Assembly (NCBI GenBank): GCA_004375715.1
Contig: SOKP01000187.1
Span: forward strand, 1 to 39,176
DNA length: 39,176 nucleotides
DNA from: Promethearchaeota archaeon
Lineage (GTDB): Archaea; Asgardarchaeota; Lokiarchaeia; Sigyniarchaeales; SOKP01
Reading direction: 5' to 3'
Positions 16,451 through 37,598 of the stretch are shown one piece after another. Below the pieces are notes generated by a model, which worked only from the letters and a program-made list of their open reading frames with translations, was not told where the DNA came from and made no database searches. A program made the translations under genes and the position numbers. The number at the start of each line of letters is the position of its first letter. The stretch's first letter is position 1.

Positions 16451-17968
16451 ATGTCTTTAAAGCTTGGTATAGTTTTTAATTTTCTTCAATTACCTGATGT
16501 TTCAAATTATCCTTTTGTTATAAATAAGAGGAGTGGTGGATTACTCGTTAAAAAGGGCTTGTTTGTATATACTAAATCTATCGAAGGTTATTTAATAGGC
16601 AAAATTGAAAAAATTGTGCTATTAAACGAATATTTCTCTGATGCTCTTACAATCAAGGCTTATAACAGCGAAACTAACCCAAATATTCTAAAAGGACTCT
16701 TTCCTAGTGACGATTTTGAATATGCTATTGCAATTGTAAGAAACTTAGGAATAGTAGAATTCAGTGACCTTAACGAAACTGAGTTTAACAGGATAAAAAG
16801 GATGATGTATCCAGCAAGTCCAGGCAAAGAAGTTTTTTTAGTTGAAGAAGAAACCCTAGATGATTTTATTGGTATTAATCGTAAGCACGGATTAAATGTT
16901 GGAAAAGTTAAAGTATCTAACATCGAAGCTCTTATCGACATGGATCGATTGCTAAACAAACATTTTGCAATTCTTTCAATCTCGGGAGGAGGCAAAAGTT
17001 ATCTTACTTCAGTATTGATAGAAGAACTATTAACAAGAGAGAATAGCTATGGAACACCAGCGATCATTATGGTTGATGTTCACGGTGAATATACGTATCT
17101 TAAAAACATTCCCTCGTTAAAGAGTAAAGTTAAAGTCGTAGACACTTCGTACTTCCAAATTTCAACCCCTAGCTTAAGTGCTTATATTTTTAAAAAATAT
17201 CAAGAACAAATTTCTTATGTTCAAATAAGAGAGTTAGCTAAATACATTAAGAAATTGAGAAAAAACAAAAAAAAATACGCACTTAATGAAATTATTGAAG
17301 AAATTGAGAATGATCCAGAGGGTAGTAAAAATACTAAACAAGCTTTGATAGGGTGGTTATCTGAATTAAACTGGTTAAACTTATTCGGACCGCAAGAAAA
17401 TCCAGTTATAAGTAATTTTGTGAATCAAGGAGAAATATCTATTTTTAATCTCCAAAATGAAATTTCAATCCGGAAAAAACAGATAATTGTCGATTATATA
17501 TGTACTCGTTTGTTTTATCTAAGAAGAATGAATAAGATTCCTCCGTTTCTATTGATAATTGAGGAATCACACCAATTCTGCCCAGAAGCAGCTCATTCAA
17601 AAGCAATTTCAAAACATATAATTGAAACAATTGCAAGAGAAGGAAGGAAATTTATGGCATGTTTATGTTTAATAAGCCAAAGACCTAAAAAGTTAAGTAC
17701 TACTGCTTTATCGCAAACAAATTCGAAATTAATTCTTAATATTAAAAATCCTTACGATTTAAAGCATCTAATGGACAGTTCCGAAGCAATCACAAAAGAT
17801 TTTGCTAATATGATTTCAAGCCTTGGCGTTGGTGAAATGTTATTAATGGGGAATGCCGTAAATTATCCAATATTTGTAGATATACGAGAAAGAAAATTTA
17901 AATCTCCAACTGAACACGCAACTTTAGCTCAAGAATGCATCAACTGGAAAAAGATCCACTCAATTTAA
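16451..17968 (+). CDS. herA: HerA-like DNA translocase/helicase
   Basis: A 505-aa FtsK/HerA-class ATPase. An N-terminal HAS-barrel-like beta domain (about 1-130) is followed by the ATPase: Walker A at 176-183 (SISGGGKS), the HerA-typical MVDVHGEY at 207-214, a Walker B in LLIIEESHQFCP, AREGRKF, and the arginine-finger strand ISQRPKKL. HerA forms a hexameric DNA pump that works with the NurA nuclease in archaeal end resection. NurA and Mre11-Rad50 are not in the window, so the partner must lie elsewhere. The Walker A has the compact S-G-G-G-K-S form seen in HerA proteins. Family assignment is firm; a variant serving another process cannot be excluded. Confidence 0.85.
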   Translation: MSLKLGIVFNFLQLPDVSNYPFVINKRSGGLLVKKGLFVYTKSIEGYLIGKIEKIVLLNEYFSDALTIKAYNSETNPNILKGLFPSDDFEYAIAIVRNLGIVEFSDLNETEFNRIKRMMYPASPGKEVFLVEEETLDDFIGINRKHGLNVGKVKVSNIEALIDMDRLLNKHFAILSISGGGKSYLTSVLIEELLTRENSYGTPAIIMVDVHGEYTYLKNIPSLKSKVKVVDTSYFQISTPSLSAYIFKKYQEQISYVQIRELAKYIKKLRKNKKKYALNEIIEEIENDPEGSKNTKQALIGWLSELNWLNLFGPQENPVISNFVNQGEISIFNLQNEISIRKKQIIVDYICTRLFYLRRMNKIPPFLLIIEESHQFCPEAAHSKAISKHIIETIAREGRKFMACLCLISQRPKKLSTTALSQTNSKLILNIKNPYDLKHLMDSSEAITKDFANMISSLGVGEMLLMGNAVNYPIFVDIRERKFKSPTEHATLAQECINWKKIHSI

Positions 17969-18178
17969 CTGGTCCATTATTTCACTTCTAATATGCTGGT
18001 TTCTTTTGTTCAGTACAATCATTTTTTTTGTCTTTGAAACCCTAAAAACATTAATTATACTTCGACTTTCCAACTTCATTAGGAGCTCTTCTAACATTAG
18101 TGTTTGAATAAAAGAGAATTCTTTCTTAAGTAATTCTTCTAAACGCTTATCTAAAATTTCGCCTTTATTTTTTATCAA
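17960..18178 (-). CDS. Small helix-rich protein, possible winged helix
   Basis: A 72-aa ORF from TTG at 18178. The same frame stays open about 55 bp further upstream (ending NQKPVVNSLIDI) without another clear start. The sequence alternates charged helices (EILDKRLEELLKKEF, LMLEELLMKLE) with a basic beta-hairpin-like segment (INVFRVSKTKKMIVL), a pattern compatible with a winged-helix fold. It overlaps the 3' end of the convergent HerA gene by 9 bp and lies just downstream of the reverse-strand cdc48. Similar small wHTH proteins are common in archaea, but I cannot assign a family, and expression is uncertain. Confidence 0.45.
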   Translation of the reverse strand: MIKNKGEILDKRLEELLKKEFSFIQTLMLEELLMKLESRSIINVFRVSKTKKMIVLNKRNQHIRSEIMDQLN

Positions 18179-18311
18179 AATATCTATTAAAGAATTTACA
18201 ACAGGTTTTTGATTCCATCTGTGACTTTCGATGATAAATCACCTTTAACTAATTATAATTTAAAATTTGTTACTAAGTAAAATAATATCCAACAAATTAA
18301 TTTTATGAATA

Positions 18312-20537
18312 TTACACAACCATCTGATCTTCTTTTGATTGTTGAATGATTCTACTTTTTAATTTTTTTCCAAAATCTTCATACCACTTAATTATTTCTG
18401 GTGTAATGCTGGGGTAAACCGATTCTAGTGCCATGTTAAAATGTTCCTCGGTAATTTTCCTTGCTCTCAAATTTTCTCTTAAAGCAATCATGCCAGCTTC
18501 ACGACATAAAGTTTCTACATCTGCTCCAGTGAAACCGTCTAGCATCTTATTTAACTTATTTAAATCAATATTAGCAGCTAAAGGCATGTCTTTGGTAAAA
18601 ATGTTTAGTATTTGTTGTCTTCCATCTTCATCAGGACCGGGAACGAGGAGTATTCTATCAATTCTCCCCGGTCTTATTAAGGCAGGGTCTAAAATGTCGG
18701 GGCGATTTGTAGCAGCAATCACTATAATATCTTTTTTTACTTCTATCCCATCCAACTCAGTTAAAAATTGCGAGAGAACTTTTTCTGAAACTCCTGAATC
18801 GGTAGTGTGTCTACCTCTACTTGGAGCTATCGAATCAAATTCATCAAAAAAGATGATACATGGCGCTGCCATTTTAGCTTTTCGAAATACTTCACGAATT
18901 GCTTTTTCGCTTTCTCCAACATATTTTGATAGCAATTCAGGTCCTTTAATTGATATAAAATTTGCTTTAGTTTCCGTTGCTACTGCACGAGCTAATAACG
19001 TCTTTCCACATCCAGGAGGTCCGTAAAGTAGGATTCCTCTTGGAGGACTTATTCCCATTCGCTTGAATATTTTAGGATGAGATAAAGGCCAATCAACAGA
19101 TTCTATCAACTTTTGCTTTAAATCTTCCAATCCACCTATTTGATCCCAAGTAACATTTGGTATTTCAACGAACACTTCTCTTATTCCAGATGGCATTACT
19201 TCTTTTAAAGCTTCCTCAAAATCTGCTTGGGTAACTTCTATTTGTTCCAATAACTCAGGATCAATAATTTCTGAATCCAAATCAATTTGTGGTAGATATC
19301 TTCTAAGAGCGGCCATTGCTGCTTCTCGGCAGACTGCAGAAATATCTGCTCCTACAAATCCATGAGTTATATTTGCAAACTCTTTTAATGATATTTTTTT
19401 ATCGAGGGGCATGTTCCTCGTGTGAATTTGAAAAACTTCTCTCCTTCCTTTTTCATTTGGTACTTTTATCTCTATTTCGCGATCAAATCTACCTGGGCGC
19501 CTTAATGCAGGGTCTAAACTATTTGGTCTATTTGTTGCGCCTATAACGATTACTTTACCTCTACTATGCAACCCATCCATTAATGCTAATAATTGAGCGA
19601 CAACCCTTCTTTCAACTTCCCCTGTAACAGTTTCTCTTTTAGGAGCGATAGCGTCAATTTCATCAATAAAAATTATTGAAGGGCTTTTTTCTTCAGCCTC
19701 AATGAATATTTTGCGTAATTTTTTTTCTGACTCACCATAAAACTTACTCATTATTTCGGGACCATTTATTGAGATAAAGTAGGCTTCACTTTCGTTTGCT
19801 ACGGCTTTAGCTAATAGAGTTTTTCCACACCCTGGAGGTCCTCTTAATAAAACACCTTTTGGAGGGTCAATACCTAAACGCTTAAATAATGAAGGATGTC
19901 TTAATGGGAGCTCAACCATTTCTCTAACTCTTTGTATTTCACGATCTAAACCTCCAACATCTTCGTACGTAACATAATCGGTCCCCCGCTCTTCATCTTC
20001 AGTAATATGTTCGCTAATGTGGAGAGATGTTTCTGGCTTAATAGTACAAATACCACTCGGTCTCATACTTATGACCTTAAAAGTAATTTCCCGGCTGATC
20101 CCTATTGATATAAATATGAAATCATCAATAGTAACGGGATAATTACTCAATTTTCGTTTAACGAAGGTTTCAAACCTTGGGTTTGATTTTATTTTAACGC
20201 TAATTGGTGCTAGAACGATATTTTGAGCGGAATGAATTTTTACTTTTTTGATTTGAATCGTTTCGTCTATATTCGTTCCGATATTCTTTTTCAATCTAGA
20301 ATCAATACGTATGATCCCTAAACCACTATCTTGCGGATAACTGGGCCAAGCTATTCCAGCACTCTCTTTCTTTCCAACAAGGGCGATAACGTCGCCGGTT
20401 TTTATATCTAACCTCTCCATGGTTTCCTGATCAATTCTAGCTATATTTCGACCAATATCCCTTTTTTTTGCTTCTTGTACTCGTAAAGATACTTTGAGAT
20501 TAGCCTTGCTATTTGAGTTGTTTTCTTTTGTTGACAT
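18312..20537 (-). CDS. cdc48: CDC48/VAT AAA+ unfoldase
   Basis: A 741-aa archaeal p97 homologue. The N-domain (about 1-185, double-psi barrel plus beta clam) binds substrates. D1 has Walker A GPPGCGKT at 233-240, Walker [15 protein letters not shown] and arginine fingers in [10 protein letters not shown]2 repeats the layout with GPPGCGKT and [12 protein letters not shown]. All catalytic motifs are intact. The hexamer extracts and unfolds proteins, in archaea partly to feed the proteasome. The C-terminus (KEDQMVV) lacks the hydrophobic-Tyr-X motif that docks ATPases on the proteasome. An SD-like AAAGGTCC precedes the ATG. It lies downstream of fen1, nob1, nadK and aIF5A on the same strand. Confidence 0.95.
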
Positions 20538-20624: not shown

Positions 20625-21680
20625 TTAATTTTTTTTGAAGAAACTATCTAATGAAACTTGTGTTTTGGAAGAATTCTGTTTTTTTAAGCGTTCAATCGCG
20701 TTTTCAACCCTTTGTCTTGAAAAATTGTGTTGTTCTATAAGAAGTTCTTCGACTTTTTCGTATTTACTTTTTTCCCAGGTTATCTTTGGATAGTCTTTTT
20801 TTATATTTGGGTATAAAAAGATCTCTTTTATTTGTTCAATAGTACTTCTATCAACTTGAATTTCAATATTCCCCACTTTAACTTGATTATTTATTATATT
20901 GTCTAATGAACCGTGCTTTCTAATAAGTTCGAGAGCTTTATGTTGCCCAATCCCTTTAATACCGGGATAGAAATCCGTTCCTATTAATATTCCCATTTCT
21001 ACTAACTGTTCGCGCGTTATGTGTAAATTTTCAAGAAATTTTGATAGGGAGATGTACTCGATATCAAGTGTAACAGTTGTGTTTTTAAGTTTCTTACTCC
21101 GGCTCACAGCAAAATTTCGTATTAGCCTCTCTCCTCCAAAGAGTAATGTATCGTAATCTTGAGAGGCGCATGCCCAAGCATCTCCATTTTCGACTAAAAA
21201 AGCGGATTGAGCTTCACCTTCAGAAGTAGCATCAACGATGGGTATTCCAAGATATTTTAATAATTTCTTACTTTCCTCAATCATGGTAGTATCCAATTTG
21301 GAAGTCATCTGAGCATATTTTTTAGCTTCTCTATAATCCCCCTCCTCTTGTGCTTTGATCATCTTATTCTTTGCATCTTCTTTGATTCTTCTTCTTTCTT
21401 TTATAGTCTCCATTTTTAACTCAGAAGGAATTCCATCAAACACATAAATAGGTTTTATGCTATGCTCTAAAAAATTAATTGTTCTATAGAATAATCCTGA
21501 TAGATGGGAAGTGATATTTCCATTGTAGTCTTTTAGTGGTGTTCCATCTCTTTGCCGGATAATAGCTAAGAACTGGTATATCGTGTTAAAGGCGTCGATA
21601 GCAATTTGTTTATTTAATAAATTATCAAAAGTTATAGTTCTCCTTACTTCTTTTACTAGTTCGTTTATTTTAGTGCCCAT
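20625..21680 (-). CDS. fen: Flap endonuclease FEN1
   Basis: A 351-aa structure-specific nuclease that removes 5' flaps during Okazaki-fragment maturation and repair. N-region (IAIDAFNTIYQFL) and I-region (EGEAQSAFLVENGDAWACAS) acidic residues are present, and the helix-hairpin-helix is GTDFYPGIKGIGQHKAL. The C-terminal TQVSLDSFF (about 340-348) is a canonical PCNA-binding PIP box (Q-x2-L-x2-F-F). Length is normal for the archaeal enzyme. The start ATG at 21680 lies 57 bp downstream of the nob1 stop. Confidence 0.95.
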   Translation of the reverse strand: MGTKINELVKEVRRTITFDNLLNKQIAIDAFNTIYQFLAIIRQRDGTPLKDYNGNITSHLSGLFYRTINFLEHSIKPIYVFDGIPSELKMETIKERRRIKEDAKNKMIKAQEEGDYREAKKYAQMTSKLDTTMIEESKKLLKYLGIPIVDATSEGEAQSAFLVENGDAWACASQDYDTLLFGGERLIRNFAVSRSKKLKNTTVTLDIEYISLSKFLENLHITREQLVEMGILIGTDFYPGIKGIGQHKALELIRKHGSLDNIINNQVKVGNIEIQVDRSTIEQIKEIFLYPNIKKDYPKITWEKSKYEKVEELLIEQHNFSRQRVENAIERLKKQNSSKTQVSLDSFFKKN

Positions 21681-21737: not shown

Positions 21738-22292
21738 CTATATTTTTTCCTTTTTTAACAAACGCTTCTTGAGTTGCAATCCACACCTTTCACATTTTTT
21801 GTCTAAATCTTCTGGTTTGTGCAGGGTTTTGCAATAAGGGCAATATACTTCGAAGTACATTTTTTCCTCTATTCCTTTTTTATATAGAGGTTTGAACCTA
21901 ATTTTTAACATAGTACATAAATTTTCCATGGAATAATCATTAGTATATAGTATGATATCTTCCGGGTATGTGTCCATTAATTCTAATACTAAACCCATTA
22001 AGTTGATGTCGTTCTTAGATAAAACCTTCGTAGTACCAGTTGATTTGGATTTTTCCTCAACTACATTTGAGTATTTATCCTGACTTCTCTTAACGACTAG
22101 TTTTCCAGTCTCAATTGCTAATTCTATTCTAAATAAAATATTTCTGTTTCGATTGATGTATTTTCGTACTTTTAACTCATTCACAATCTCTGGTGTTGTG
22201 AAAATTCTTTCTGGAAAGTAATTAAAATCTACGCCAGTTAAAAATATATTTGTATCAAAAACTAAAATTGATTTCTTCTTCTGGACTGTCGT
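21738..22292 (-). CDS. nob1: NOB1-like rRNA endonuclease with non-standard start
   Basis: PIN-domain endonuclease for 3' maturation of 16S rRNA, with a C-terminal zinc ribbon (CPYC...CERC). The first ATG (22184) would give 148 aa and remove the first catalytic strand. The same frame continues upstream with SILVFDTNIFLTG and TTPEIVNEL, which supply the first catalytic Asp and a conserved Glu. The frame is open back to a TAG at 22293-22295, and none of the codons between it and the PIN strand is ATG, GTG or TTG. The first codon after the TAG is ACG (22290-22292), seven bases after AAGGTG, giving 184 aa. A start at ATT (in SIL), or a +1 shift from nadK, are alternatives. It overlaps the nadK 3' end by 38 bp. 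Confidence 0.8.
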   Translation of the reverse strand, partial: TTVQKKKSILVFDTNIFLTGVDFNYFPERIFTTPEIVNELKVRKYINRNRNILFRIELAIETGKLVVKRSQDKYSNVVEEKSKSTGTTKVLSKNDINLMGLVLELMDTYPEDIILYTNDYSMENLCTMLKIRFKPLYKKGIEEKMYFEVYCPYCKTLHKPEDLDKKCERCGLQLKKRLLKKEKI

Positions 22293-23181
22293 CTAACGGC
22301 ACCTTTATAGTTCCAATTATCTTTTTCCTTAATCTTCTAATATAGTTATCGCTAATACTTTTAGAAAGACGAATAAAACTTGTATGAGAATTGGCTTTAC
22401 GAACTCTAACTATTGATTTTGGTTGGACATCTTTTAAAGTTTTTTGACCATCAATAATAATCTTAGCGCTTAATCTCGGTCTTAAAAGTTGGATTTCAAC
22501 TTCGCTTTCTATTGGTAGTACGATAGGTTTCAAGCCTGATCGAGCAAAACTATTTAACGGTGTAATTTGCATTATATCCATCGTTGATTTAACAATCGCT
22601 CCACCTGCGCTAAGGTTATATGCAGTAGAACCAACAGAAGTAGATACAATAATTCCATCTAGATAACTACGATTGAGATAACAACCGTCTATTTTTATGG
22701 ATGCCAAAAGAACTTTTGAACTCTTTGATGAGATTATTAAAATTTCGTTTAGAGCATTACTCAATCGAATTTCTTCAGAATCCTTTAATAAAAAAGCAGC
22801 TAATTTAGAGCATTTTTCAATTAAAAATTCGCCTTTTAAAACACGATTTATATCGTTAAAAACATTCCTTTCATTTGTTTCATCTAGGAATCCTAGGGAC
22901 CCAATATTAACGCCTAGTAGGGGAGGTGCGTTTCTAGGTGGCAAACCACCTGCTACTCGTAATATAGTTCCATCTCCCCCTATAGAGATTAAAAATTTTG
23001 TGTTATCTTTCGTCATTTCCTTTAAATCTTTTCCACTATGAGGAAAGATTTTAGGTGCGATTCTAGTCTCCATTTGAACAATCTCACCCTTTTTTACTAA
23101 AAATTCGAAAATCTTTTTTGTTAAGTTAATCGCTCTCTCTGAGTCCATTCTGCAAGCTAAAGAAATTGGTTTTTTTTCCAT
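22255..23181 (-). CDS. nadK: NAD kinase
   Basis: A 308-aa ATP- or polyphosphate-dependent NAD kinase making NADP. Diagnostic motifs: SIGGDGTIL (66-74, catalytic Asp in GGDG), NIGSLGFL, NALNEILI (NE motif) and DGIIVSTSVGSTAYNLSAGG. The C-terminal about 25 residues after LRKK extend a little past the usual end. The ATG is preceded by GGAGTGAT. The stop (TGA at 22255-22257) sits in GTTTTTGAT, where the overlapping nob1 frame continues, so the two genes are translationally linked. Confidence 0.93.
   Translation of the reverse strand: MEKKPISLACRMDSERAINLTKKIFEFLVKKGEIVQMETRIAPKIFPHSGKDLKEMTKDNTKFLISIGGDGTILRVAGGLPPRNAPPLLGVNIGSLGFLDETNERNVFNDINRVLKGEFLIEKCSKLAAFLLKDSEEIRLSNALNEILIISSKSSKVLLASIKIDGCYLNRSYLDGIIVSTSVGSTAYNLSAGGAIVKSTMDIMQITPLNSFARSGLKPIVLPIESEVEIQLLRPRLSAKIIIDGQKTLKDVQPKSIVRVRKANSHTSFIRLSKSISDNYIRRLRKKIIGTIKVPLDDSPEEEINFSF
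22300..22305 (-). promoter_or_regulatory. Shine-Dalgarno candidate for nob1
   Basis: AAGGTG on the minus strand, inside the nadK coding sequence, seven bases before the ACG at 22292-22290. It fits the archaeal 16S anti-SD well and has ideal spacing. This is the main reason for proposing ACG as the nob1 start. Confidence 0.4.
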
Positions 23182-36923: not shown

Positions 36924-37598
36924 ATGCATAGCGTTGAAAAATTGTTTATTCTTAATAATGAAGTAAAACTTGAAGCTGAAGTTTTTCAGACAGAAAAAGA
37001 AACACCTAGTTGCGTTGCATTAATGTGCCATCCACATCCTCAATTTTTTAGGGTTTGAATCCCAAGAAAGGGAAAGTATGGCGGGGACATGTATAATAAT
37101 GTTGTATCCAGTGTTTTTAATTCTTTCGTTAAAAAGGATATTTCGTGCATGCGCTTCAATTTTAGAGGGGCTGGTAATTCAACAGGGAATCATACAAGCG
37201 GTAAAGGCGAATTAAGCGATGTTAAGTCGTGTATTGACTATTTAACGGAGAGTTTATATTTTGATAGAGTATTTATATGCGGGTACTCCTACGGTGCAGC
37301 CATAGGATGCTCTGCTATCAATCATTCTGAAAAAATAATTGGATATTGTGCAATTTCTTTTCCTTGGGACTTTATAAGCGTCAAATATAAAGAGTTATCT
37401 CAATCGATAAAACCAAAATTATTCATTCAAGGGGACATGGATACAGTAGCACCTTATGAAAACTTTATGATACACTTTAATTATTATTCAGAGCCAAAAA
37501 AATTCAAGATTATAAAAGGGGCTGACCATTTTTATCAAGGGTTTGAAATTGCGATTAGTAGAATAGTAATGAACTTTTATGAATCAATAATGACCTGA
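36924..37598 (+). pseudogene. Alpha/beta hydrolase interrupted by a 33-bp insertion
   Basis: From ATG 36924 the frame encodes MHSVEKLFILNN... to CHPHPQ, meets a TGA at 37056-37058, and resumes in the same frame at TAT 37077 with YGGDMYNNVV. CHPHPQ joined to YGGDMYNNVV is the normal continuous motif of this hydrolase family (COG2945-like). So 37044-37076 is a 33-bp insertion, and it carries the stop. Downstream the catalytic residues are intact: GYSYG nucleophile elbow, QGDMDTVAP (Asp) and GADHFYQG (His). Internal initiation at ATG 37089 would lose the first strands and the HPHP oxyanion region. Everything outside the insertion looks undecayed, so the event is recent, or the insert is tolerated by an unknown mechanism. 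Confidence 0.75.
37044..37076 (+). other. 33-bp hairpin-forming insertion with in-frame TGA
   Basis: The inserted block can fold: TTTTTTAGGG (37044-37053), loop TTTGAAT, CCCAAGAAAG (37061-37070), with three G-C pairs, one A-A mismatch and six A-T or G-T pairs. Its length is a multiple of three. No target-site duplication longer than one base is seen. Confidence 0.6.

Follow-up and report, generated by a model that had tools for sequence, protein, structure and literature searches.

Nob1 of archaea is an endonuclease composed of a PIN domain and a zinc ribbon, predicted here to act in the 3' end maturation of 16S rRNA. Initiation at ACG is known from eukaryotic and viral genes such as yeast ALA1, AAV VP2 and Sendai C'. 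Among bacteria, AUU is a known rare start codon that is used by infC, the autoregulated gene for IF3, and prfB is expressed through a programmed +1 frameshift; plastids offer the precedent of C-to-U editing that turns ACG into AUG. In full-text searches of the open-licence literature, judged mostly from the lists of results, nothing turned up on ACG starts in archaea or on near-cognate starts in Lokiarchaeota. Here we describe a nob1 gene of a Lokiarchaeal lineage that is, as the best reading of the sequence comparisons, very probably translated from ACG. It lies within the window (the whole stretch of 39,176 nucleotides that was analysed), which is contig C121 of the draft MAG G000 (3.07 Mb, 320 contigs, 84% complete). 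This genome belongs to a Lokiarchaeal genus, its relatives in protein searches being MAGs of Candidatus Lokiarchaeota/Lokiarchaeia.

The Nob1 protein matches PIN_6 (PF17146) at 5.2e-13, which passes the cut-off, and PDB 2lcq at 1.9e-12 over residues 6-175, an entry titled 'Putative toxin VapC6' that we take to be the Nob1 of Pyrococcus. The zinc-ribbon match is weak (PF13248, 3e-5, scoring 23.8 bits where the cut-off is 27), and the cysteines CPYC...CERC are visible in the sequence. The PIN_6 domain, the strand with the catalytic Asp and a similar length before the first strand are shared with archaeal Nob1 as represented by 2lcq, and so, putatively, is the zinc ribbon, whereas the proposed ACG start codon, found in six species of the genus, is not. 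The frame and the PIN domain are intact in all six ACG genomes. On the minus strand, nadK and nob1 are followed by a presumably FEN1-like gene (20625-21680) and by a gene for what we assume to be a CDC48-type ATPase (18312-20537).

The preliminary description of this DNA had claimed that nob1 begins inside nadK without an ATG, GTG or TTG, and the claim held when the frame was checked, with the same TAG-ACG junction present in six congeneric genomes. The frame ends with the stop at 21740-21738 on the minus strand and opens after the TAG at 22295-22293, and between that TAG and the catalytic strand there is no ATG, GTG or TTG, either here or in any other of the six ACG genomes. The first in-frame canonical start is a GTG at 22184-22182, 24 codons beyond the catalytic Asp (GAT, 22256-22254). 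It had also been noted that the first PIN strand lies 5' of the first ATG with the TAG 10 codons ahead of it, and VFDTN indeed starts at codon 11 from the ACG (GTT, 22262-22260). Both the Shine-Dalgarno (SD) word and the ACG sit inside nadK in another frame, where they contribute GTG (Val) and GAC (Asp). A sense reading of the TAG was rejected; it would not help, because the frame 5' of it holds more stop codons (TAA, with first letters at 22307, 22319 and 22331) and the stretch from the nearest of them, at 22307, to the TAG has no start. The features of the locus are collected in the table.

Table. Features of the nob1 locus in the window, with the aIF1 loci of the genus
Feature	Position	Strand	Remarks
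nob1 coding region, ACG to stop	21738..22292	-	184 aa; predicted N-terminus M(acg)TVQKKKSILVFDTN; start by comparison
ACG, proposed nob1 start codon	22290..22292	-	ATG in 15/21, ACG in 6/21 same-overlap congeners
TAG closing the nob1 frame, directly 5' of ACG	22293..22295	-	sequence
AAGGTG, Shine-Dalgarno-like	22300..22305	-	7 nt before ACG; AGGTG pairs with CACCT of the 16S 3' end GGATCACCTCCT
nadK (NAD kinase)	22255..23181	-	NAD_kinase_C 4.5e-24, NAD_kinase 1e-15; overlaps nob1 by 38 nt
TTT-TGA, nadK end, suggested +1 slip site	22255..22260	-	present in ATG-start relatives too
ATT, alternative start considered	22266..22268	-	ACT in G008
PIN domain; its first strand, ILVFDTN, holds the catalytic Asp	21978..22265	-	PF17146 residues 10-105; 2lcq alignment
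Nob1 zinc ribbon	21774..21851	-	PF13248 residues 148-173, 3e-5, under curated cut-off
aIF1 loci	L120:18611-18958 (G002 C84); L161, L163, L164, L166, L167, L174, L176-L184, L187, L188, L192, L136		

The PF17146 profile was sought in 58 genomes, 53 of which matched, and in all 24 genomes of the genus, where 22 matched. Two congeners, G007 and G017, gave no PF17146 match, and one of the two is 98% complete; loss, divergence or a gap could each account for this. In 21 of the 22 matched genus genomes the overlap of nob1 with nadK is exactly 38 nt long; G004 is left out, since its nob1 lies away from nadK and its ATG is preceded by a chance ACG. At the column of window 22292-22290 these 21 congeners read ATG in 15 cases and ACG in six (G000, G002, G008, G013, G016 and G021), each ACG standing directly after a TAG. 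By this comparison the proposed ACG start is column-exact with the ATG start of the relatives in six species that offer no other canonical start. The non-canonical option of the preliminary description, an ACG right after the TAG and seven nucleotides after AAGGTG, is thereby backed. Its proposal to compare the junction in relatives gave a divided answer, as a normal ATG is found in 15 of them and the ACG has been kept in six species.

Since GAT and GAC both encode Asp, ATG and ACG are silent alternatives in nadK, which does not demand the T-to-C change. The ACG genomes fall into two groups that are strongly diverged (57-61% identity at nadK third positions, 64-66% in Nob1), so the ACG state is old and not a recent slip. 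A FastTree phylogeny of nadK and Nob1, a single method, unites G000, G002, G013, G016, G006, G008 and G021 in a clade with a support of 0.975, and within it the ATG genome G006 groups with G008 and G021 at 0.98, the pair G008 and G021 itself being weak (0.55). ACG has either a single origin, followed by a return to ATG in G006, or more than one origin; the codon changed between ACG and ATG at least twice on this tree, so the six ACG species are not six independent events. Nor does the persistence of ACG alone prove selection, because the six ACG genomes agree at 48 of the 85 two-fold degenerate columns of nadK, and another nadK Asp codon (alignment column 4) is GAC in exactly the same six.

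The 16S tail GGATCACCTCCT was found in the seven genus genomes read, G000, G002 and G008 included. All six ACG genomes have an AGGTG whose end lies 7 nt 5' of the start. In none of the 15 ATG genomes do the 18 nt 5' of the start contain this word; they have AGGTT or weaker words there. G006, which the tree puts with the ACG genomes, has ATG and lacks AGGTG. The change from GTT to GTG that completes the word is silent in nadK, and this Val column is the only one of 11 fully conserved nadK Val columns with GTG in all six. By duplex energy the gain is small and there is no clean separation of ACG from ATG genomes, RNAduplex giving -7.5 to -8.0 in the former and down to -8.0 in one of the latter. 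A pattern search found a CAU tRNA-Met with the GGGCTCATAACCC arm, presumably of the initiator type, in two ACG genomes (G002 and G013); the same pattern did not find it in G000, whose MAG is 84% complete. A special initiator tRNA with a CGU anticodon was considered and rejected: a pattern search allowing CGU gave GGGATCGTAACCC matches in G000, G002, G013 and G017, and at the loci of G000 and G013 ARAGORN and Rfam returned only a neighbouring tRNA-Leu and no tRNA at the match.

Initiation directed by the SD word to a near-cognate codon is most likely. The AAGGTG inside nadK would position the ribosome, its spacing would put the ACG into the P site at the usual distance, and the ordinary CAU initiator tRNA would pair near-cognately with ACG, giving a protein that starts with Met. 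The weaker codon probably lowers the output of Nob1 and may tie it to the stringency of initiation. As in ALA1, AAV VP2 and Sendai C', an ACG would be read as a start; those genes, however, use scanning and context, whereas the archaeal nob1 would use SD positioning.

Four other explanations of the junction were weighed. Translation could start instead at the ATT (AUU) at 22268-22266 to give Met-LVFDTN, an option raised in the preliminary description, and AUU is seemingly used by other genes in this genus. It is nevertheless improbable, with no SD word at the proper distance and an ATT that is equally present in ATG-start relatives and is hence a plain Ile codon there; G008 reads ACT at this position, so ATT cannot be the common start and the option fails. 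The same description had suggested that a programmed +1 slip at TTT-TGA joins NadK to Nob1 and links NADP synthesis with rRNA processing. The two frames stand in the right relation for this, re-pairing of UUU on UUU is possible, and the nadK end resembles prfB in its U-rich codon before UGA, but in contrast to prfB the site has no need of a slip, has no stimulator and is common to relatives with a normal start. TTTTTGA is found in all six ACG genomes and in 11 of the 15 ATG genomes, where a fusion is not needed (the other four have TTATTGA), and it is the Phe-Asp of the PIN motif that imposes TTT-GAT. Moreover, conservation of the NadK tail stops at PEE, where the protein ends in G024, G030 and G034, the sequence before TTT is CAGAAGAAGAAATCAATTTTAG, without an SD-like stimulator, and the six ACG genomes keep an SD before the ACG instead. 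The slip is accordingly given very little probability, and a fusion coupling NADP synthesis to rRNA processing, which falls with it, is not supported, as the slip site is common to ATG-start relatives.

Editing of the nob1 mRNA from C to U, which would turn ACG into AUG as in plastids, fits a start codon in which a C stands exactly where the relatives have a T. We consider it highly improbable, for the other near-cognate starts of the genus include CTG, ATT and ATA, which cannot become ATG in this way. A mistake in assembly or base calling at the ACG, or decay of nob1, has a probability of next to nil even for a draft MAG of 320 contigs: the junction recurs in six genomes from different assemblies, all with an intact frame and PIN domain, and error is out because the ACG species are distinct and three of them correspond to public MAGs that were assembled separately.

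The preferred reading, an ACG start of nob1 placed by the SD word, can be set beside the starts of other genes in the genus. Shadow ORFs and conserved upstream DNA made the first orthologue scans noisy. Start columns were compared in orthologous, mostly syntenic stretches of G002 (ACG) and G009 (ATG) with 288 de-shadowed pairs. A canonical start column was shared by 245 pairs (in G002 183 ATG, 41 TTG and 21 GTG), in 17 only one of the two genomes had a canonical start, in 14 both lacked it, and 12 made up the rest. Judged by eye, about nine of 31 odd pairs are near-cognate starts. Two genes have ACG in G002 against ATG in G009 without another canonical start, namely nob1 and a glyoxalase-family gene. 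The latter reads GGTGA-ATTCTAA-ACG in G000 and G002 and also has ACG in G016, there with an in-frame ATT two codons ahead; in the other ten of 13 matched genomes (24 searched) its start is ATG (seven) or TTG (three). The gene for ScpB (L116:11952-12824 in G002; L290-L306) has CTG after GGTGA in G002, G007, G008 and G021, a TTG two codons before the same CTG in G013, TTG in G006, and ATG at the CTG column in G003, G005, G009 and G014, the remaining three of 13 genomes read (17 matched, 24 searched) having other N-termini with ATG. Two more start codons are known from G002, G008 and G009 only: a DeoC/LacD-family aldolase has an ATT start after GGTGA in all three, and the Pop5/Rpp14 gene (L208:17479-17805 on contig C222 of G008) has GGTGA, six nucleotides and then ATA (G008), GTG (G009) or GTC (G002). 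GTC as a start of Pop5/Rpp14 would be very unusual.

Several further observations concern this subject. Response-regulator proteins with charged N-termini seemingly start with ATC or ATT after AAGGTGA or AGGTG (L205:15453-16451, L127:2050-3081, L142:52-798 and L108:1071-2021). Beyond the CDC48 gene, on the minus strand of the window at 17960-18238, a gene of 90-92 aa without a Pfam match reads AAAGGTGA and then TTT ATC ATC GAA, with no canonical start, and has none in G002, G008 and G009 either (ATA/ATT/ATC). On the plus strand at 37059-37595, a gene conserved with G009 shows homology that begins right after the upstream stop and ten codons before the first canonical start, which is an ATG in the window, G009 having CTG at that place.

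A scan anchored on the SD word took ORFs of at least 90 codons in which the codon 5-8 nt after AGGTG or GGTGA comes soon after an upstream stop, and counted non-canonical ORFs only when no canonical start was nearby, reading 0.2 to 0.55 Mb per genome. Canonical, near-cognate and other starts numbered 11/5/1 in G002, 5/6/0 in G008, 14/4/1 in G009 and 2/1/0 in the window, compared with 7/3/1 in G034 (same family), 18/3/1 in G042 (same order) and 57/1/3 in G056 (other class). Near-cognate codons thus stand at about a third of the strong SD sites in the genus against 1/58 in the outgroup G056, with Fisher p values for near-cognate versus canonical starts of 0.0014 (G002), 2.5e-5 (G008) and 0.010 (G009), although the genus counts are not independent since orthologues recur among its genomes; about ten distinct genes are behind the near-cognate matches. 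Thirteen non-SD control words summed to 23/5/5 in G002, 15/0/1 in G008, 33/0/3 in G009, 4/0/0 in the window, 19/3/2 in G034, 25/0/4 in G042 and 49/1/3 in G056, so that G002, G008 and G009 together have 71 canonical and five near-cognate matches, all five in G002. As the G002 and G034 controls show, the scan has some background of false matches. SD strength was also put to a Fisher test for eight near-cognate genes chosen by hand; since the SD had played a part in the choice, this test is circular and was not relied on.

The gene for aIF1 (SUI1) was found in 51 of 58 genomes. All 20 main copies of the genus in which the start was read have the block AAAGGTTGTGA-N9-ATT AAA, with an in-frame TGA nine nucleotides before the ATT and without any canonical start ahead of the zinc knuckle. 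At the same position, other genera of the family have ATT in G024, G025, G029, G030, G033, G034 and G035 and ATC in G026; G028 and G036 have an in-frame GTG, and the copy of G027 is cut by the contig end. The second copies that G003, G012 and G018 carry contain a GTG in frame, which could just as well belong to an SD. AUU is a possible start of aIF1, a start-fidelity factor, the alternative being a +1 shift from an out-of-frame GTG in the genus. There is a parallel to infC in that a conserved translation gene, nob1, has a near-cognate start and the aIF1 of the same archaea an ATT; unlike infC, nob1 would use ACG, Nob1 is a ribosome maturation enzyme and not a fidelity factor, and regulation is hypothetical. 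According to PMC6237735, aIF1 of Sulfolobus is reported to favour discrimination against non-canonical starts, and eIF1 autoregulates through the poor context of its AUG (Ivanov et al., as described in PMC3434475). The two cases are alike in that aIF1, too, is a start-fidelity factor encoded with a poor start, and differ in that for aIF1 the codon itself (ATT) is poor and autoregulation is only hypothetical. By analogy, the AUU at aIF1 may represent a third version of the IF3/eIF1 circuit.

Near-cognate initiation at nob1 appears to be part of a habit of the lineage, and the gene would be one case of a wider use, in the genus, of SD-anchored initiation at ACG, CUG, AUU, AUA and AUC. We suggest, tentatively and with the balance somewhat against it, that the position of the SD more than the codon defines the start in this lineage (ACG, CUG, AUU, AUA, AUC and perhaps GUC, with aIF1 on AUU across the family), and that the near-cognate genes, nob1 included, form a regulon tuned by aIF1, which would autoregulate like IF3 and eIF1, with maturation by Nob1 tracking the stringency of initiation. 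Gene callers limited to ATG, GTG and TTG would drop or truncate such genes: with canonical starts only, the catalytic Asp would be cut from Nob1, and aIF1 would either be overlooked or be left without its N-terminal zinc knuckle. Near-cognate starts that several species retain, in archaea close to the eukaryotes, bear on the evolution of start-codon stringency.
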